Assembly (NCBI GenBank): GCA_030037435.1
Contig: JASHRI010000483.1
Span: 1-38,289 of the forward strand
Origin: Candidatus Acidiferrales bacterium
GTDB taxonomy: Bacteria > Acidobacteriota > Terriglobia > Acidiferrales > UBA7541
DNA: 38,289 nucleotides
Reading direction: 5' to 3'
Shown here in pieces: positions 6,533 to 35,764 of the stretch. How positions within the stretch are numbered: position 1 is the stretch's first letter; each line of letters opens with the position of its first letter. The position numbers and the translations under genes were made by a program. A model generated the notes under the pieces. It did no database searches. It had not been told where the DNA came from and saw only the letters and a program-made list of their open reading frames with translations.

Positions 6533-7528
6533 TCAGGTTCGAGAGGGAACGACCATGTTATGCGCGGCGCACAAATGGAGCAGAAGCTCGCGATCACACT
6601 TCCGGCCGAAGCACTGTAATGGGTAGCTGCAGAAAATCGAAGCACAGTTAGTAGCGACCCAATTACTCGCGAGTTGCTCGATCCACAGAGCAGTCTCGGG
6701 GTTGCCGCGAAGCCAGATCGACGGTGCTACCTCAGCAGCGAACACAACTCGGCGGTCATCGTTCTGCGTCGAAACACGAGCCTGCCTGACTGCTTCGTCG
6801 AGCACTTGTGTGAGTAGATTTGCATCTAGTTCTCCGCCGACCATTGCCGACGACAGGATATGGTCCGCATCCAGCTCGAGATATCGGCCGGACTCGACCG
6901 CGGCAGGCAGGTTCAAGCCGCGTGCATTCAATCGCCGTTCTAGTTGCTCTCTGTGAGCGGCCGTGCCGACAACAACGGCGGTGGCATTCGCTTCGATGGC
7001 GGTGCCAAGAAACTCAGCCCATCCAGCGACGAGCTGGTCGTCGTCAGAATGGAAACGAACGAAATGCCCCGGCCGCGTGTGATCGAGCCAGCGTTTAGGC
7101 CGACTTCCGCCGTTATTCGCCCCATCGAGATTGGCAAATGCATGGGGTGAGATGAATCTGTAGCCGGCCAACGCCAGGTCCAATGCTGCCGTCAAATCCG
7201 AAGACAGTCGAGACTTGAAAACATAGCCCAAAGCACCGGCGGCGAGTGCCGCTGAAATATAATCGTCGTCCTGATGCATGGTCAGGAAAACGATCGCAGC
7301 GCGCGATCCAACCTGTCTCAATTGTTTGGCTGTGCGAATGCCATCGAGTTGGGGCATTGAGATGTCGAGCAGGACAATATCCGGGTCGAGCTTGGCGGCC
7401 GCGTCCAGCGCCATTACTCCATCTCCGACTGCGGCGACGACTTCGAAGCGCGAGCGGAGCAGCGCGGAAACAGTTCTTGCGAAGGGGGCATGATCGTCCG
7501 CGATGAGCACCGTGGGTTTGCGCCTCAA
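6533..7528 (-). CDS. response regulator receiver fused to MEDS (DcmR-like sensory) domain, no HTH
   Basis: Receiver 'VLIADDHAPFARTVSALL...PDIVLLDISMPQLDG...VFLTMHQ...GYVFKSR', then 'HFVRFHSDDDQLVAGWAEFLGTAIEANATAVVVGTAAHREQLERRL' (MEDS). Confidence 0.8.
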   Translation of the reverse strand: MRRKPTVLIADDHAPFARTVSALLRSRFEVVAAVGDGVMALDAAAKLDPDIVLLDISMPQLDGIRTAKQLRQVGSRAAIVFLTMHQDDDYISAALAAGALGYVFKSRLSSDLTAALDLALAGYRFISPHAFANLDGANNGGSRPKRWLDHTRPGHFVRFHSDDDQLVAGWAEFLGTAIEANATAVVVGTAAHREQLERRLNARGLNLPAAVESGRYLELDADHILSSAMVGGELDANLLTQVLDEAVRQARVSTQNDDRRVVFAAEVAPSIWLRGNPETALWIEQLASNWVATNCASIFCSYPLQCFGRKCDRELLLHLCAAHNMVVPSRT

Positions 7529-18456: not shown

Positions 18457-18716
18457 TTTTCACATTCCTTTCAGCACCCAATCATCGCAGCGCAGTGTCA
18501 CACTTCTTTACGAGTGCCGGGAGGGAAGGTCCGATCCAGCGCGGCATGCTGCAAGAGTTCTGCCTCGGCGTCCCAGCGCAGGCCCATCCGCAACGCTTTC
18601 AGAGTCTCGAATGAGGTGGCGGCGTGCGCTTCAGCGCGTATCGCGGCGACCGGTTAAACGAAAGTCGGAACCCCTGTGGTGCTTCGGTGCCAGGACAAGG
18701 TCGAAAGGAGAGCACG

Positions 18717-19238
18717 ATGAAAACGACGCGAGCCTTGGTTGGCCTCAGTCTTCTTCTAATGGTATGCGGAATCGTCTGGGCCGACGTCAACGTCGACTGG
18801 GATAGGACAGCCAATTTTGCAAACTACAAGACGTACGCCTGGCAAACGGGAACCCCGGCTAAAAATCAGCTATGGGATCAACGGATCACGGATGGCGTGG
18901 ATAAGCAGCTCGCCGCGAAGGGCTTTCAGAAGGTCGATATCGGCAACAATCCAGACTTGATCGTCCTATATCACGCAGCTTCAGGAGCGGACACGCAGTT
19001 AAACACCACGAATATGGGCGGCTGGGGCTGGCGCTGGGGCGGCACTTCCACCACGACCGTGAATACGATTCCTACAGGGCAGCTCAGCGTCGACATTGGA
19101 GACGCGAAGACGAAAAAATTGCTCTGGATGGGTTCGTCCAGCGATACGCTCAGCGGCAACCCAGATAAGAATCAGAAAAAACTAGACAGCGCGCTGGACA
19201 AAATGTTCAAGAAATTCCCTCCGCCTGAGAAGAAGTAG
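18717..19238 (+). CDS. DUF4136 domain protein
   Basis: 'MKTTRALVGLSLLLMVCGIVWADVNVDWDRTANFANYKTYAWQTG...WDQRITDGVDKQLAAKGFQKV...DLIVLYHA...GQLSVDIGDAKTKKLLWMGSSSDTL'. SD AGGAGA. Confidence 0.88.
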   Translation: MKTTRALVGLSLLLMVCGIVWADVNVDWDRTANFANYKTYAWQTGTPAKNQLWDQRITDGVDKQLAAKGFQKVDIGNNPDLIVLYHAASGADTQLNTTNMGGWGWRWGGTSTTTVNTIPTGQLSVDIGDAKTKKLLWMGSSSDTLSGNPDKNQKKLDSALDKMFKKFPPPEKK

Positions 19239-19455: not shown

Positions 19456-20094
19456 TTAGCGCGGCGAAATCACATGTTCGCGGATTGCAAACTTAACCAG
19501 ATCCGAGTTCGTTTTCAGGTGAAACTCTTCCATGATGCGATACTTATGAAATGCAATCGTTCGGGAGGTAACGTGCAGGAAGTTGGCCGCCTCTTTCATC
19601 GTGCAGCCCTCAGCAAGCAACTGCAGCACCTGGCGCTGACGCGGGGTTAGTTCCTTCTGGCTGCTGGCATGAGGGTCCCGGACAAACTGGTCTGCCAATT
19701 TCTGTGCCACCAGAGGAGTTACGTACGTCTTGCCTTTCAATGCTTCCTTGATCGCCTTTATCAGCTCGGCGCCAGCCGACTTTTTGAGCAGATAGCCGGA
19801 AGCCCAGGATCGAAGCGCCTCGGCAGCAACTTCGGTGTCTTCGCTCATCGTAAGGGCGATCAACTTGGTCTTTGGCAGCAGCCGTTTCAGTTCTCGCCCA
19901 GCATCCATGCCGTTCAAAAGCGGCATGCCGATGTCGATTACAATGGCATCAGGCTTGAGTTCTGGTGCGACCCGCAGCAGGCTGTGGCCGTCCGCCACTG
20001 TTCCCACAACGTCGAATTCGGATTCCAAAAGCTTGCCAATCACTTCGACGACCATCGTATGGTCGTCGGCCAGTAACACTCGGGGCCGTATCAT
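19456..20094 (-). CDS. NarL/LuxR-type response regulator
   Basis: 'RVLLADDHTMVVEVIGKLL...PDAIVIDIGMPLLNG...IALTMSED...GYLLKKS' plus HTH 'LTPRQRQVLQLLAEGCTMKEAANFLHVTSRTIAFHKYRIM'. ORF open to 20139. Confidence 0.93.
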   Translation of the reverse strand: MIRPRVLLADDHTMVVEVIGKLLESEFDVVGTVADGHSLLRVAPELKPDAIVIDIGMPLLNGMDAGRELKRLLPKTKLIALTMSEDTEVAAEALRSWASGYLLKKSAGAELIKAIKEALKGKTYVTPLVAQKLADQFVRDPHASSQKELTPRQRQVLQLLAEGCTMKEAANFLHVTSRTIAFHKYRIMEEFHLKTNSDLVKFAIREHVISPR

Positions 20095-20434
20095 GATCGT
20101 CGCCTTCCGGGCGGCCACGTGCTCAGGGTCCGCGATCAAGTTGGCGTCAGTGCCGTCGGAAATTGTCGTTTAGGGGCGGTGATACAGGTCGTAACTATAT
20201 TCCTCCAAGGCCTATTACGTCTAGTTCTAGCCCATCCCAATGGGGGCGGGGTTCCTCTCAAAAAGTCCTCAAAGCAGTCGCTTGACTAGATCATGAATGA
20301 CCACGTGAAACGGCAGTGCAAAGAAGACGGGGTGCCAGTTGCACCAGCACACCCATGGCCAGCCGCGTCAAGCTTTTCGCCCCCAGACGATGCCGGCACC
20401 GCGCGATTGTGGAGAGCCCCTCAGCGCTGCAAAA

Positions 20435-20450: not shown

Positions 20451-20606
20451 GCGACCGGCGCTAATATGGCGAAAACTGGTATTAGTTACAGTAGGCTCGG
20501 CCGGTCGAGGACACATAGTATTCCGCGCGCCGGGAAAACCCAGACCCTACTCCGGTACTAATCTGAGTTCCAAATATTCGTGCCGCATGTCTGCGAGGAG
20601 GTCCAC

Positions 20607-21251
20607 ATGTCAATCGCGAGCAGGGCCAGAGTGATGATTGCCGACGATCACAAGTTAGTAGCGGAGGCCTTGAGAAGGTTCTTGGTAGTCGATTTCGATG
20701 TGATCACGACCGTCAACGACGGGCGGAGCCTCGTGCAAGCAGCAGAGGCCTTAAGGCCCGACGTGATTGTGGTAGACATCGGATTGCCGCTGCTCAATGG
20801 GCTGGACGCAGGCGAGCGAATTAAGCGGGTTCTTCCCGGCGTCAGGCTGATTTTTATGACGATCACACGAGAACCCGAAATCATCGCGGAGGCATTTCGG
20901 CGCGGCGCCTCCGGCTACGTCGCAAAGACGTCGGCCGTCACCGAGCTGGTCGCGGCAATCCACGCGGCGTTGGAAGGGAACACCTACCTGTCGCCCTCCC
21001 TTTCGTCGCCGGACTCTGCTGGTTCGCAGCCATCGACCGACAATCCAACGAACGAAAAACTTACGGAAAGGCAGCTCGAGGTGCTGCAGTTGTTAGCCGA
21101 AGGTCGTTCGATGAAGGAAACGGGGGCGATGCTCAATCTCACAGCTCGCACCGTTGCCTTCCACAAGTACCGGATTATGCGTTGCCTCCGCCTGCATAAC
21201 GATGCGGCGATCGTAAGGTATGCGGTACGCAGGCACATCGTATGTGCATGA
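20607..21251 (+). CDS. NarL/LuxR-type response regulator
   Basis: 'RVMIADDHKLVAEALRRFL...PDVIVVDIGLPLLNG...IFMTITRE...GYVAKTS' plus HTH 'LTERQLEVLQLLAEGRSMKETGAMLNLTARTVAFHKYRIM'. Confidence 0.92.
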   Translation: MSIASRARVMIADDHKLVAEALRRFLVVDFDVITTVNDGRSLVQAAEALRPDVIVVDIGLPLLNGLDAGERIKRVLPGVRLIFMTITREPEIIAEAFRRGASGYVAKTSAVTELVAAIHAALEGNTYLSPSLSSPDSAGSQPSTDNPTNEKLTERQLEVLQLLAEGRSMKETGAMLNLTARTVAFHKYRIMRCLRLHNDAAIVRYAVRRHIVCA

Positions 21252-27317: not shown

Positions 27318-27333
27318 CTGGCAGATGTGACAG
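27318..27333 (+). promoter_or_regulatory. CTGTCA-N4-TGACAG operator (1 mismatch) upstream of the 27409 gene
   Basis: CTGGCA-GATG-TGACAG with TAGCCT at offset 24-29 (27357-27362). A weaker copy CTAGCA-CAAG-TGACAG lies at 27267-27282. Confidence 0.7.
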
Positions 27334-27408
27334 ATGATCGAGACGTGCGATTCGATTAGCCTTATCGCCAGACAATTGGCAGCAGGCGGGCTGCGGGGAG
27401 GAAAACAT

Positions 27409-28128
27409 ATGTCAATTCGCATATTGAAACTCTTCGTTACGCTCATCTTGGCTGTTTGTGCTGGTTTCGCAGCGCAAGATTTACGCGCGGGCCAGAGCCA
27501 AGCTCTCCAAGAGCGCATTGCGGAACTGAAGCAATCGGTGGCTGCAAATCGCGCGCGATTGGAAAAGTATCAGTGGATTGAGACCACTATGGTCAACGTC
27601 AAGGGAGAGACGAAAAAGACGGAACAGAATCTCTGCCGATACGGGCCGGATGGCACAGTGCAGAAGACACCGATCGGTCCTGCACCGGAGCCGGCAAAAG
27701 AGCCGGGCGGGCTGAGAGGAAAGATCAAGGAAAAGAAAGTCGGAGAGTTTAAGGACTACATGGAGAGGCTCAAAAGTCTCGCGGCAGAATATGTGCCTCC
27801 CAACCGCGATCGGATCCAAAACGTCTTTCAGGCGGGGAACGCCAACCTGAACGCATCCTCGGGCGGCACTGTGTCGGTGATCCTAACCAACTATCTCAAG
27901 CAAGGCGACAAGGTGACCTTTGCGTTCGACTCAGGAACGAGAAAAATCCAGAGCTTTACCGTGAATACCTATCTGGATGATCCGAAGACCGACATCGTGA
28001 ATCTATCAGCGGAATTCTCGATCCTTCCTGACGGCACAAGCCACGTTTCTCAGTCGGACCTCCAGTCCCTGAGCAAGCAGACCGAAATCAAGACGACCAA
28101 TTCGCAATACCAGAAGTTGAGTGAATAG
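27409..28128 (+). CDS. hypothetical secreted protein
   Basis: MSIRILKLFVTLILAVCAGFAAQDLRAGQSQ signal peptide. SD GGGGAGG. The upstream 27334 start precedes the TSS predicted from the 27318 site. Confidence 0.7.
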   Translation: MSIRILKLFVTLILAVCAGFAAQDLRAGQSQALQERIAELKQSVAANRARLEKYQWIETTMVNVKGETKKTEQNLCRYGPDGTVQKTPIGPAPEPAKEPGGLRGKIKEKKVGEFKDYMERLKSLAAEYVPPNRDRIQNVFQAGNANLNASSGGTVSVILTNYLKQGDKVTFAFDSGTRKIQSFTVNTYLDDPKTDIVNLSAEFSILPDGTSHVSQSDLQSLSKQTEIKTTNSQYQKLSE

Positions 28129-28990
28129 CCAGCGGATTTGCGCGGACGCCGCCAGTACTCCGACCTCTGGCGGGCTGAGATTCGACTTGAGACGAGTGCT
28201 GTGCGAAGTGCCGGTGGATATGGCAATCGGCAGGTACATCCGCGGGGACACACGTCCCAGCAAGTGGCGCAGTTGCATTTCGAACTCGGCTAGAGACACG
28301 ACTGCGGCGGCGCTACGAGTATTGATTGGCGTATTACTTTTCGTTTCGTGCTGCGCTGGTCAGCAAGTGCCTGGTGACGCGGCACAGCAGCCCCAGAACA
28401 ATTCCAATGCGATCCGTGTGAACTGGCTCTATGGCGCGTACCTGCCTCGCGACGTAGAAATCGAGCCACTAAGCAGGCACCAGCGGATGCAGTTGTACGT
28501 GAAACAGACCTATACCACGTGGGGCATCTACGCTAAGACGGCCATGTTTGCGCTCGGCGATCAGGCTAACAACTCGCCTCGCGAATGGGACGGGGGAATA
28601 GGCGATTTTGGAGAGCGATTCGCCTCGCGCTACGGTCAGTTTGCGATCCAAAATACATTTTCTGCAGCCGGCAATTATGCTCTCGGCTACGAACCCCGCT
28701 ACGATCGCTGCCGCTGCTCCGGCGTGTGGCGCAGGACAAGACATGCTCTGGTGCGCAACTTTGTCACCTACAATTCCACGGAGAGCGAAGAACGGCCTCA
28801 GATTGCGTTTTATGCCGGAGCGATGGCCGCAGGAGCCATCGCCTCCATATGGAAGCCCGGCCCCGTCAATCCCTGGAGAAGCGGCTACCAATCAGTGCTG
28901 ACACAAGTTGCTTTCGGAGGCTTAGCGAGTGTGGTCGGCGAGTTTGCCCCGGAGATTGCGCGACTATTAAAGAGAGGGAAGAACACTTGA
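28121..28990 (+). CDS. hypothetical exported protein, translationally overlapping the previous gene
   Basis: Hydrophobic segment ALRVLIGVLLFVSCCAGQQ, then a 200-aa conserved-looking domain. GTG start overlapping the 27409 gene stop, or a later ATG. Confidence 0.55.
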   Translation: MNSQRICADAASTPTSGGLRFDLRRVLCEVPVDMAIGRYIRGDTRPSKWRSCISNSARDTTAAALRVLIGVLLFVSCCAGQQVPGDAAQQPQNNSNAIRVNWLYGAYLPRDVEIEPLSRHQRMQLYVKQTYTTWGIYAKTAMFALGDQANNSPREWDGGIGDFGERFASRYGQFAIQNTFSAAGNYALGYEPRYDRCRCSGVWRRTRHALVRNFVTYNSTESEERPQIAFYAGAMAAGAIASIWKPGPVNPWRSGYQSVLTQVAFGGLASVVGEFAPEIARLLKRGKNT

Positions 28991-29087
28991 ACCAGGCGAT
29001 TTCGCTCTTCAGGATCGGCCCGCGTAACTTTGGATTAAAGCTCGCGACTGCTCTTTACACACGCTACATCGTGACGTGACTTTTTCT

Positions 29088-29206
29088 GGATGAGGAAGCC
29101 CCGGGGAGTCGGCTCCCCGGGCAAGAGGGTTGTTGAAGGTGCAGCTAGGTGAGCAAAGTGAGAACTCTACCTAGCTGCACGTCGGGGGGGATGGCGTGCC
29201 TGGAGG
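29088..29206 (-). ncRNA. candidate small RNA expressed from the perfect operator at 29242
   Basis: No credible ORF. On the minus strand the operator is followed by TAGCCT at offset 24-29. The predicted RNA is CCUCCAGGCACGCCAUCCCCCCCGAC-[GUGCAGCUAGGU...ACCUAGCUGCAC]-CUUCAACAACCCUCUUG-[CCCGGGGAG-CCGA-CUCCCCGGG]-GCUUCCUCAUCC. Confidence 0.5.
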
Positions 29207-29241
29207 GTCCCGAGGCTACAGTCGAGGACCCTAGGGTGCTA

Positions 29242-29257
29242 CTGTCAAAATTGACAG
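29242..29257 (-). promoter_or_regulatory. perfect CTGTCA-N4-TGACAG operator in an ORF-free region
   Basis: CTGTCA-AAAT-TGACAG. Minus-strand TAGCCT at 29213-29218. No -10-like match at that offset on the plus strand. Confidence 0.7.
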
Positions 29258-29671
29258 GGGGCCTCCTCGTGGGACCGACCTCAGAAGACGTGACGGGCTG
29301 CCTCGCCCGCGTCTGTCGACTCGTCGGCTGACATATTTGCTAGTTGTGCCGCTCACCTATCGCAACCAAACTCGGCGCGTACGGAACAGGTGAATCACAC
29401 TCAGCGGGTCGGTACAACGTCCGATCTACGATGACTGCATCCGGGATACGCGTCGACCATGCCTCGAAAATCTATAGTTCATGGCTGCTTTGGCGTGTTT
29501 GTGGCGCACAGATCGTTTCTGATGGTCCTGTCGAGTTTCTGCCAATCGCCCTGCGGCTCCCAATCGGATCCGACGCTCTCGTGGGACGGTAACCCTTCCT
29601 GGCGCCATTACAGAACGCACGATCTCCTTCACGCCCCCTCGCGGTACACCCGCATCGCTTCCCTCCACTGT

Positions 29672-29705
29672 TCCCGGAAGCAGGTCATCGTCACTGCTTC
29701 CGGGA
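29672..29705 (+). terminator. 12-bp perfect stem-loop, terminator-like
   Basis: TCCCGGAAGCAG-gtcatcgtca-CTGCTTCCGGGA followed by ccTTCCTTTCTCGCGTTTTT. Confidence 0.45.
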
Positions 29706-29902
29706 CCTTCCTTTCTCGCGTTTTTGCCGTTCGCAGAAGGGTAACGAATTCTTTTGGCGCGAGACTTATACCCACGAGTCGCCACGTGCTCCCATGGCGC
29801 GTGGTTCCGTATTGAAAGCGACCTGCAAGGGTACGACCGTGCAACCCAGCAATACGCGACACGCGTCGGCCGCGCGAACTCTCGCGGATCGCTTGAGGTG
29901 GC

Positions 29903-30835
29903 TTATTCCCAGTCGATCTGCCGCTTTTCCTGCCTTTTCGAGCGCCTTCGCACTGCTTCTTCAGCTGTGGAGAAGATTATTTCTGCGGCGAAACCGCTCG
30001 CAAAAGCAAAGACGTAAAGCGCAGCGGGAGCGAAGGGCGCCGAGGCGGCGGTGCTAGTGTGCAAGTACGGAAAATCTATCACCCGCAGACGGAGAAACAA
30101 GATCACGACGACTCCTAGTATGGCTCCGAACGTCGCACGGAATAGCAGTACCATTGGTTCGATCCGAAGGTCTTCCACGTCCATTCGACTCTGGCGCAAC
30201 TGGAGCGTGGCGTGCAGCAGAGCGCCGCTCGCCCCAAGGCAAGCAATCACTGCTACCTGCCAGGCAGACTCGGGTCCTATTCGCTTCATCTGCAGGAACC
30301 ACAGCCCTGCAATCACAAGGGCCGAAAGGGCCGCGTTGAACAGAAGGGCGGTCCGCATGACTCTCGACTTCAGGTCGGCCTTTCTGACGAAGCGAAAACC
30401 AGCCTCGTAAATGGCTCGTGCGAGCGAGGCAATTTCTTCACGCACTGTGCCGTTTGCGTTTCCGCTCCTTACATCCTGCTCGATCCTATCGAGCTTCTGG
30501 TTTGACCATATCTCGCGAGTCGGCGCATCGAGGATGCTGGCGCAGGATCGCAGACTCAGCACCACGCCCAGTAGGTCGTCAAGGCTCCCCGCCGAGATGA
30601 ATCCCTCGTAGGCAAGCTCGTAGTGGCTCCACTGGCCCATCAGATTGGCCTCCTGCGAAATTGCATTCAGATGGCTTTCAATATGGTGCAGCGTTTCCTG
30701 GGGAGTCTTTGTGGATTGCCTCAGCAGTTTGATCTTGTCTCGCAGCAACTGCGATTTCGCCGTCAGGCTGAGCCGGCTGAACTTTTGGTCCACGTCGCCA
30801 AAGCTCAGAACTGGAATGACTTCGGTATACGCCAT
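29903..30835 (-). CDS. hypothetical membrane protein, C-terminal TM helices
   Basis: Start MAYTEVIPVLSFGDVDQKFSRLSL. Helical soluble domain, then four hydrophobic segments. Confidence 0.65.
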   Translation of the reverse strand: MAYTEVIPVLSFGDVDQKFSRLSLTAKSQLLRDKIKLLRQSTKTPQETLHHIESHLNAISQEANLMGQWSHYELAYEGFISAGSLDDLLGVVLSLRSCASILDAPTREIWSNQKLDRIEQDVRSGNANGTVREEIASLARAIYEAGFRFVRKADLKSRVMRTALLFNAALSALVIAGLWFLQMKRIGPESAWQVAVIACLGASGALLHATLQLRQSRMDVEDLRIEPMVLLFRATFGAILGVVVILFLRLRVIDFPYLHTSTAASAPFAPAALYVFAFASGFAAEIIFSTAEEAVRRRSKRQEKRQIDWE

Positions 30836-30915
30836 CCGCTGCCTCCTTATGCTGCCGTTTACAAATGCACTCATCGCGACCCACCGAGGATAATCGGCGA
30901 AATGCGTGGCATGAT

Positions 30916-30931
30916 CTGTCAGATTTGCCAG
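30916..30931 (-). promoter_or_regulatory. CTGTCA-N4-TGACAG operator (1 mismatch) upstream of the 30835 gene
   Basis: CTGTCA-GATT-TGCCAGTT. Minus-strand TATCCT at offset 24-29 (30887-30892). Confidence 0.7.
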
Positions 30932-31165
30932 TTCTTTTTTGGCACGGCGCTTCGGTACAGTCTTATGGGAACCAATGAAAAGCTGCCTTTCCACTCCTAT
31001 GCAACGCGCCGGCGCGTGGGCACCGACCATGCGTTTTCTTCCGGAAACTCGTCATCTACATCAAGGCGATTAGCGAGCGAGATGACGTCGCACTTTTGGA
31101 GCAGGTCGGCGATCATCAAACGCCAATCCATTGAGTAATAGAGGCTTATCTCTCAACTCTTCGAC

Positions 31166-31307: not shown

Positions 31308-33974
31308 ATGTCACCGATGAGAGTTATGCGCTTCAAACTCCCCATCATCTGTTGTTTCGTCGGAGTATTTTCGCTGCGGGGGCAGCTTAACCTCGCGGAA
31401 GTCATACGATCCGGCTTTGGCGCACGCGTCAACAGGCCATTACATGAGCTATTCGGTCTTCAAGCATTACTCCTACGCCCGGTGTTCAATACTGACTATG
31501 CGGCGGCAATCCCGACCCGTGCCGCCGCCCTGTTCGTGATTCTAGCGATCCTGCTGACGGTCGTGATCGTGTTCCAAAAGCGACAGAACTGGCGGATGCA
31601 CCAGCTTTTGGTGAGTCAAGCTGCGAGAAGGAGTCGAATCTTCGAATTCTGGGAGCATCTGGTCAGCAGTCCGCCGGAACGGCTCGCGCAGACGATCACG
31701 ACGGGTTTCGAGAACGTTCTCGATTTCGGCATTGCAGATCGAATGTGCTGGTATGAACTGAATGAGGTCACAGGAAGCGTCGTCCCGGTATATAGCGCTT
31801 GCGCCCGGGGGGTATCCATTCCAGCCGAGCCGGTCGAACCGGGACAGACGCCATCCATTTCGGAACGTCTGTCCCGTCACGACATCGTTTCCATCGAAGA
31901 CGTGGAAGGTCTGGCCGCAGGAGCGGAAACCGACAAACAATTCCTCAGTGCGCATGGCGTGAAGTCTTTGCTTCTCATACCGTCGACTTATAGCACAAGA
32001 AGAAAGGGCGTATTGGGACTGGCGTCGCTCACGAGGTGCCGGAAGTGGCCACCCGACCTTACAAGCCAGCTCGCATTTCTTGGGAACATTATAGGAGCCA
32101 CGTTGGAGCGCAGAGACGCCGAAGAAGCGAGCCGAGAAAGCGAAGAACGCTTTCGATATCTTTTTCAGCAGGCCACATTCGGAATCGCGCTCGAAACGCT
32201 CGATGGACGGATTCTGAACGTCAACCCAGCGCTGTGCGGAATGATGGGTTATTCCGAAGAAGAATTTTTGGAAATCAGTTGCGCGGACATCACCCATCCG
32301 GACGATGCTGCTGCCGAGGAAGCGCTCTTCAGTGAGCTCAAGCAAGGGCTAAGATTGTGGTATCGAATCGAAAAGCGGTTCTTATGCAAGGACGGCTCCG
32401 AAATTTGGGGAGAGGTCCACGTCTCGCTCCTGGAGGGAACGAACCGGGGTCCGCTCGTGGTTGGCATTGTCAGGGATATTACTTTGCAAAAGGCCGCGGA
32501 GGAGGGACTACGCGCTTCCGAGGCACGGCTTCACTCCACCCTCGATGTTCTCTCCTCGCGAATCGCGATCCTGGATGAGACAGGGGCAGTGCTTGCGGCC
32601 AATGCAAACTGGCGCCGGGTGAGTGGAGAAAATGTGCCCGGATGTCTCTTCGTGCCAGTGGGAACCAATTTTCTGAAAGCCTGCGCTGCCACGAACGGTC
32701 AGAGTGGCGAAACGGCCAACGAGGTAGCAAGGAGGGCCCGGTCGCTGATGAACGGTGAGGCGCAAGGTGAACCAATCCTGCAGAAATGGGCGGGCGCCAC
32801 TGGCGAGGACGGATGGTTTCGGGTCATGATGACCAGGTTCCAGGAGATGGGAAAGCCACGTGTTGTTGTTTCGTACCAGGACATTACGGAACTCATGCGG
32901 ACGCGCAACGCACTGGAGAAGAATCAGGAGCACCTTTCGCTTGCTCTGGAGGCTTCGCATACGGGCACCTGGGAGTGGAGCTGCGAATCAAATCAAGTCC
33001 GCTGGAAGGATAACCAGGGCCTGATTTTCGGACCCGAGGAAGGCGAATACGTCGGCGACTACCGCCGCCTGTTTGACTATGTGCATCCGGACGATCGCCA
33101 AACTGTCAGGGATCTCGCAGAGCAGACCCTTGGGAGTGGCAGTTCTTTCTCGTCTCAGTTCAGGGTCGTGGACCGCCAACGAACGACTCATTGGATCCTG
33201 GCGAAGGGGAAAATAGCTCGCGACCAAACGGGGCGCGCTGTGCGGATGGTCGGGGTCAATGTCGATATCAGCGAACTAAAGCGGAGAGACAACGAGCTTC
33301 AAAAACTCGCGAGGCGTCTAATCGAAGCGCAAGAAGAGGAGCGGCATCGCATCAGCCGCGAGTTGCACGACGACATCGGTCAACGAGTATTCCTAGTCGC
33401 GTGCGAGCTTGAGATGCGGCGCCAAGCTCTTGTGGCTCTCAAGCAAGATCGCGAAAGCAATCAATTGAAAAAGGTTCAGCGAGAACTGGATCAACTTTCA
33501 ACCGACATCCACGAACTCTCTCATCAGCTCCATTCCTCTAAATTGCAGCACTGCGGACTTGCAGTGGCCTTGAAAGAGCTGTGCGAAAAGCATTCGAAGA
33601 ATAACGGGCCGGTGATCGAGCTATCGGCGCGCGGTGTGGACTCGGATGTGCCGCCTGATGTGGCACTTTGCTTGTTTCGCGTGGCGCAAGAGGCGCTCTC
33701 GAATGCCGTCAAACACAGCCTTGCAAGAAAGATATTAGTCCAGGTGGATCAGCACCTTGGAAGGGTGTGCCTGACTATCAAAGACGAAGGGAAGGGATTT
33801 GATCCCACGATCCAGTCCGAGGGGATTGGTTTGACGAGTATGAGAGAACGGCTTCGTATAATTGGAGGCGAACTGCTGGTGAAGTCCTCTCCGAACGAAG
33901 GAACAGAGGTTTCCGCGGCAGTCAACGTCCCAGAAGCCGCTATGCAGAAAGCCGCCGCGGCCAAGGGGGACTAA
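31308..33974 (+). CDS. GAF/PAS sensor histidine kinase, NarL/HisKA_3 class
   Basis: GAF-like N-region, PAS repeats ('RFRYLFQQATFGIALETLDGRILNVNPALCGMMGYSEEEFLE'), 'EERHRISRELHDDIGQRVFLVACELEMRRQ', 'EALSNAVKHS...DEGKGFDPT...GIGLTSMRERLRIIGGEL'. Confidence 0.93.
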   Translation: MSPMRVMRFKLPIICCFVGVFSLRGQLNLAEVIRSGFGARVNRPLHELFGLQALLLRPVFNTDYAAAIPTRAAALFVILAILLTVVIVFQKRQNWRMHQLLVSQAARRSRIFEFWEHLVSSPPERLAQTITTGFENVLDFGIADRMCWYELNEVTGSVVPVYSACARGVSIPAEPVEPGQTPSISERLSRHDIVSIEDVEGLAAGAETDKQFLSAHGVKSLLLIPSTYSTRRKGVLGLASLTRCRKWPPDLTSQLAFLGNIIGATLERRDAEEASRESEERFRYLFQQATFGIALETLDGRILNVNPALCGMMGYSEEEFLEISCADITHPDDAAAEEALFSELKQGLRLWYRIEKRFLCKDGSEIWGEVHVSLLEGTNRGPLVVGIVRDITLQKAAEEGLRASEARLHSTLDVLSSRIAILDETGAVLAANANWRRVSGENVPGCLFVPVGTNFLKACAATNGQSGETANEVARRARSLMNGEAQGEPILQKWAGATGEDGWFRVMMTRFQEMGKPRVVVSYQDITELMRTRNALEKNQEHLSLALEASHTGTWEWSCESNQVRWKDNQGLIFGPEEGEYVGDYRRLFDYVHPDDRQTVRDLAEQTLGSGSSFSSQFRVVDRQRTTHWILAKGKIARDQTGRAVRMVGVNVDISELKRRDNELQKLARRLIEAQEEERHRISRELHDDIGQRVFLVACELEMRRQALVALKQDRESNQLKKVQRELDQLSTDIHELSHQLHSSKLQHCGLAVALKELCEKHSKNNGPVIELSARGVDSDVPPDVALCLFRVAQEALSNAVKHSLARKILVQVDQHLGRVCLTIKDEGKGFDPTIQSEGIGLTSMRERLRIIGGELLVKSSPNEGTEVSAAVNVPEAAMQKAAAAKGD

Positions 33975-35077: not shown

Positions 35078-35764
35078 ATGCAAGGTGTAAGAAACGTCCG
35101 CCTTCACCTTCCCGAATCCAAAGCGATTGGAAAGGTCAGGGTCCTCGTGGCTGACGATCACGGCCTGATCGCTGAGGGATTCACGAAACTGCTAGACCCC
35201 CGATTTGAGATCGTTGACACGGTAGCCGACGGTGCCGCCCTGCTTGAACTGGCACCCGAATCGAATCCCGACGTGGTGCTGTTGGCGCTGACCACGTCGT
35301 TGATCAATGGGACGGAAGTTGGCGAGCGTCTCAAGAGGCTCCTACCTCGCACAAAAATCATCGTCTTCGCGATAACGGAGGATCCGGATATTGCCGCCGA
35401 GGTGCTTCGGAGTTGGGCATCTGGTCTTTTGCTCAAGAAATCGAGTGCCCTGGAGGCGTCGAAAGCGATCCGGGAGGTTCTACGCGGCAAAAAGTACGTG
35501 ACTCCACGAATGCGAGCGAAGCTGCTCGACGCATTCGTTCGGGGTCGATGGCGCAACCGTGGACGTACCCTGACGCCGCGCCAAAAAGAGGTTTTGCAGC
35601 TCCTCACCGAAGGGCACACCATGAGAGAGGTAGCCGATATCCTTCATGTGGCGCCAAGAACGGTAGCCTTCCATAAGTACAGACTCATGGCATCCCTCGG
35701 CTTGAAAACGAACTCGGACTTACTGCGCTTTGCGATCAGGGAACACCTCGTACCCCTAACCTAG
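35078..35764 (+). CDS. NarL/LuxR-type response regulator with degenerate receiver (no phospho-acceptor Asp)
   Basis: 'VRVLVADDHGLIAEGFTKLL...NPDVVLLALTTSLING...IIVFAITEDPD...SGLLLKKS' plus HTH 'LTPRQKEVLQLLTEGHTMREVADILHVAPRTVAFHKYRLM'. Confidence 0.9.
   Translation: MQGVRNVRLHLPESKAIGKVRVLVADDHGLIAEGFTKLLDPRFEIVDTVADGAALLELAPESNPDVVLLALTTSLINGTEVGERLKRLLPRTKIIVFAITEDPDIAAEVLRSWASGLLLKKSSALEASKAIREVLRGKKYVTPRMRAKLLDAFVRGRWRNRGRTLTPRQKEVLQLLTEGHTMREVADILHVAPRTVAFHKYRLMASLGLKTNSDLLRFAIREHLVPLT

Follow-up and report, generated by a model that had tools for sequence, protein, structure and literature searches.

A candidate small RNA behind an operator of a probable NarL/LuxR-type two-component regulon in an Acidiferrales bacterium

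Statistics of the sequence suggest that the operator at 29242 of the window (the whole stretch of DNA analysed, 38,289 nucleotides from a Candidatus Acidiferrales bacterium) marks a promoter, part of a two-component regulon, that probably gives rise to a small RNA instead of a protein, and this RNA is likely to have a function of its own. The small RNA reading is favored by a -10 box that lies at the regulon spacing and on the minus strand only, by the lack of a gene behind this site when 16 of the 17 such modules in the window face one, by a fold that is an outlier among 60 leaders and a hairpin strength unique in the window to the gene-free stretch, by the co-occurrence of operator and regulator, and by the absence of coding potential and of any gene relic. 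Counted against it are the lack of a homologue in the genomes searched, of an intrinsic terminator and of pairing above that of shuffled segments. In the literature searched, we found no such sRNA described for the lineage and no description of the regulon as defined by its operator, 23-nt -10 spacing, NarL-type regulator and patchy spread in the family. We tentatively propose that the DNA carries an undescribed NarL-type two-component regulon island, with an operator before nearly every gene and with its own fast-evolving post-transcriptional small RNA.

The operator reads CTGTCAAAATTGACAG at 29242-29257 (CTGTCAATTTTGACAG on the minus strand) and is laid out as CTGTCA-N4-TGACAG, a palindrome with a 4-nt centre that abuts the promoter. 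The genome holds 9 perfect copies of CTGTCANNNNTGACAG, 3 of them inside the window, versus 0 copies of a reversed control. The first operator search imposed no condition on the outer C and G, which are common to 9/9 of these copies; lux-type boxes have the same outer CTGT-N8-ACAG frame. The first-pass annotation of this DNA had reported a perfect operator at 29242 with no credible gene adjoining; both are seen, and the operator is also no one-off. Its distribution in the family is patchy, with 5-15 copies in 8 genomes, 1-3 in 6 and none in 75 (n=89).

TANNNT was counted at every distance from the operator over 77 distinct sites (154 flanks). At a distance of exactly 23 nt, the motif is present in 29/154 flanks, where 0.9 were expected (P 4e-34), and on this spacing the operator is a promoter element. 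The commonest -10 boxes of the regulon set are TAGCCT (the top type), TAGCTT, TAGCAT and TAAGTT. At 29242, the top type is present:

29213-29218, minus strand: -10 box TAGCCT, exactly 23 nt from the operator at 29242-29257

The plus strand of the site has no -10 at the regulon spacing, and a plus-strand promoter was dropped because no suitable -10 box is found there. The usual spacing would put the transcript start near 29206, with the operator centre near -43.5. A minus-strand TAGCCT and a start near 29206 had both been proposed earlier; the box is present at the regulon-wide spacing, and its position supports the predicted start. Since the -10 lies only on the minus strand, transcription from ~29206 would enter 215 nt without coding potential. 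On these sequence grounds, a minus-strand transcript from 29242 appears well supported and is very likely.

The whole window looks like one regulon island. Allowing up to 2 operator mismatches and a -10 at 22-24 nt, our analysis uncovered 17 operator-promoter sites in 38 kb (window 4741-37610), with 0 or 1 in mononucleotide shuffles. All except 29242 (16/17) face an ORF start within ~340 nt on the strand carrying the -10. The regulon contains envelope and stress-type proteins (OmpA/YidB, DUF4136, Ysc84, DUF2490 and an FGE-sulfatase-domain protein). At 6533-7528, a response regulator with a MEDS (DcmR sensory) output domain lies beside a large PAS kinase, which is an uncommon combination. The site that lies convergent to 29242 is the following:

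27318-27333, plus strand: operator with one mismatch and a TAGCCT -10 box, predicted promoter of the convergent operon 27334-28990

Neither strand of the stretch 28991-29902 shows coding potential, its frames scoring -0.06 to -0.01 bits per codon against 0.07-0.30 for annotated genes in the same test, and six-frame comparison revealed no relic of a gene in it. Reading on from 29242 along the minus strand, one next meets the convergent genes 28121-28990 and 27334-28128. Behind the minus-strand operator site at 30916, a 375-aa frame with gene-like codon use is found at 29903-31030. This frame matched nothing in Pfam, and neither 40 related genomes nor genome_contigs contained a relative; when this orphan gene was used as an anchor for RNA homologues, no relative was found.

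The predicted transcript and its structures are as follows:

29088-29206, minus strand: candidate small RNA of ~119 nt, both ends predicted, non-coding, fold z -5.1
29139-29180, minus strand: hairpin 1, 12-bp perfect stem (29139-29150/29169-29180) with an 18-nt loop
29100-29121, minus strand: hairpin 2, 9-bp GC-rich stem (29100-29108/29113-29121) with a 4-nt loop

The 12-bp and 9-bp hairpins described in the first-pass annotation are both in place and above chance, and the CCUCC, the C7 tract and the linker CAACAACCCUCUUG that it listed are all present in the minus-strand RNA. Folding of this RNA gave z values of -4.5 to -6. When 130-nt segments directly downstream of 60 regulon promoters were folded, the candidate was an outlier at z -6.0 (-4.9 in a repeat with other shuffles), the next leader being at -2.4. 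Within the 38 kb window, there are two perfect stems of at least 12 bp with loops of up to 20 nt, each in the gene-free stretch, and 0/10 local shuffles held a perfect stem of at least 12 bp. The candidate RNA is predicted to be a structured non-coding transcript, as looked for in a response-regulator-activated sRNA. Its hairpins can fold on both strands, and no U-rich intrinsic terminator is found behind hairpin 2. A third strong hairpin, with a 12-bp perfect stem, is located in the same gene-free stretch at 29672-29705, ~200 nt beyond the stop codon of 29903-31030, a minus-strand gene.

No Rfam family matches the RNA, three sub-threshold matches to eukaryotic families being chance, which agrees with the earlier remark that it is not a recognisable one. 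DNA searches of 60 relatives and 399 genomes of the class gave no homologue, with matches of 18-46 nt. None of the 19 matches fetched (0/19) has an intact operator nearby, and the best was rejected as a homologue because it sits within a 635-aa reading frame. An exact 20-mer had 4 matches in genome_contigs, all in unrelated gut or rumen-type bacteria of unrelated phyla and slightly above the ~0.5 that we estimate to be expected by chance; a 23-mer had no match in viral contigs. A repeat element was rejected as the identity of the stretch, which is single copy in the genome. The anti-Shine-Dalgarno-style pairing suggested earlier was not borne out within the window, where pairing of the RNA with 24 start regions was no better than that of shuffled segments (17-60% of which paired equally well), leaving the suggestion one of base composition only.

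The window encodes three NarL/LuxR-type response regulators and a candidate partner kinase:

19456-20139, minus strand: NarL/LuxR-type response regulator (receiver plus GerE), probable activator from Pfam and co-occurrence
20580-21251, plus strand: second response regulator, NarL/LuxR-type (Pfam)
35078-35764, plus strand: third response regulator, NarL/LuxR-type (Pfam)
31308-33974, plus strand: PAS-HisKA_3-HATPase sensor kinase (Pfam) with a same-strand operator module at 30916, candidate partner

Relatives of 19456-20139 with 51-61% identity were found by tblastn of the window proteins in the fetched site clusters of 7 genomes, sometimes directly behind an operator (L056 11503, L057 12300). 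A profile seeded from operator-bearing genomes gave orthologues at >290 bits in 15 of the 89 family genomes, with a clear gap to the rest. Operator and orthologue are both present in 12 genomes and both absent in 72, with the regulator only in 3 and operators only in 2 (Fisher P 1.6e-10; 4e-5 after leaving out the seed genomes). The 3 genomes with the regulator but no perfect operator count against the link, as does G103, where 9 perfect operators are present and no regulator orthologue was found; this genome may be incomplete or may use a different activator. The correlation, within one family of genomes, makes a NarL/LuxR-type response regulator the probable activator. Among proteins of known structure, its best-matching relatives are VraR, NarL, DesR, RcsB and DevR. 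In a genome with 11 operators, the orthologous response regulator (G030:C24:26933-27568) has one TGA stop codon within its reading frame. For relatives of the response regulator on Rhizobium, Cupriavidus and Caballeronia plasmids, no operator of this kind accompanied by a -10 lies in the vicinity, so the regulator link is one drawn within the family genomes. On a Rhizobium leguminosarum plasmid (L118 4841-13162), an ATP-binding protein, a response regulator and a second regulator follow one another in the same order near a mechanosensitive channel gene, without the operator.

The first-pass annotation had instead assigned the site to FNR-family control. A CRP/FNR-family protein acting on the same small RNA would suit the palindrome with its 4-nt centre and class-II-like position, and the genome has 9 HTH_Crp_2 matches. 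Such matches are found, however, in 89/89 family genomes, whereas the operator is present in 14; in addition, it is the NarL-type regulator that is encoded in the site clusters, often with an operator before it, and lux-type boxes share the outer frame of the operator. Control by CRP/FNR is thus very improbable, and since HTH_Crp_2 is everywhere and the operator tracks the GerE-type regulator, we replace the FNR attribution by a NarL/LuxR-type response regulator. Coding of a small protein by the transcript is hardly conceivable: the only frame within it, a 29-aa minus-strand frame at 29124-29035, opens with a TTG that no Shine-Dalgarno precedes, overlaps the GC-rich hairpin and has no homologue.

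A product acting locally, through its overlap with the 3' UTR of the convergent operon 27334-28990, would interfere with transcription of that operon or alter the stability of its mRNA. The operon does have its own operator at 27318 with the same -10 box, relatives of its second gene lie directly behind operators elsewhere (L065, L067), and plus-strand read-through, if any, would be fully complementary to the RNA. Such cis action nevertheless seems unlikely, as defined hairpins are present in the 215 nt that precede the stop codon of this operon and a plus-strand mRNA extending to 29088 is without support. The operator could also be idle or left from a lost gene, the hairpins being 3'-end structures of 28121-28990 (plus strand) and 29903-31030 (minus strand). 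The further hairpin past the stop of the latter gene, the folding on both strands and the missing RNA homologue would fit; yet the operator and its -10 are intact, no gene relic is left in six frames, and perfect stems of at least 12 bp are absent elsewhere in the window despite other convergent gene pairs, making this explanation clearly unlikely.

For a regulon promoter with a small RNA product, we propose the following model. The NarL/LuxR-type response regulator, presumably phosphorylated by a PAS kinase, would bind CTGTCANNNNTGACAG, which overlaps the -35 region, and once bound would activate minus-strand transcription from TAGCCT. From ~29206, the RNA would consist of a C-rich 5' single strand, the 12-bp hairpin, a pyrimidine-rich linker and the 9-bp GC-rich hairpin, and its 3' end near 29088 would be either the end of transcription or a site where a longer RNA is processed. 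While the regulon is active, this RNA would act at the post-transcriptional level, most likely through base pairing between its C/U-rich single strands and mRNAs. This trans-pairing mechanism is a guess from precedent and is rather doubtful.

FnrS of Escherichia coli is an sRNA made from a promoter of a global activator regulon, and the candidate promoter would likewise belong to an activator regulon. The regulator family differs, however, and Rfam gave no match to FnrS; judged by regulator tracking and Rfam match, the two features examined, the candidate is not of the FnrS type. DrrS (MTS1338) of Mycobacterium tuberculosis is a DosR-regulated sRNA of ~109 nt that is processed from a longer RNA, has a stem-loop at its 5' end and carries a 3' hairpin followed by a short CU tail instead of a U tract (PMC5360333). 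The candidate resembles DrrS in its predicted control by a NarL/LuxR-type response regulator, in a last hairpin with a short CU tail and no U tract, and in its predicted length, but its 5' end is a C-rich single strand, its operator differs, and no Rfam-level sequence relation is seen. UvrY is a GerE-type response regulator that binds a palindrome upstream of sRNA genes, its box TGTAAG-N6-CTTACA lying far upstream of csrB/C at -222 to -142 (PMC4682653). The candidate shares with the UvrY/GacA (BarA-UvrY) systems that control CsrB/CsrC or RsmY/RsmZ a GerE-type regulator with a palindrome before an sRNA, whereas its operator adjoins the promoter. On our reading of the sequence, the RNA has no row of GGA loops, and a CsrA sponge was therefore rejected. 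The candidate would be a further case of the response-regulator-activated sRNAs; its novelty is less firmly grounded than that of the surrounding regulon.

In uncultured bacteria, sRNA candidates mostly come from folding evidence alone. At 29242, strong statistics link the promoter with a defined regulon and with a probable regulator, which yields predictions of start, strand and activator that can be tested directly. The regulon architecture also provides a rule for finding further targets. In another genome of the set (G069), a possible second noncoding RNA of the regulon was noticed on the minus strand at L057 19240-19400, where a weak operator (2 mismatches) has no evident gene-like frame behind it and a hairpin followed by a T run lies convergent to the end of gene 18514-19218.
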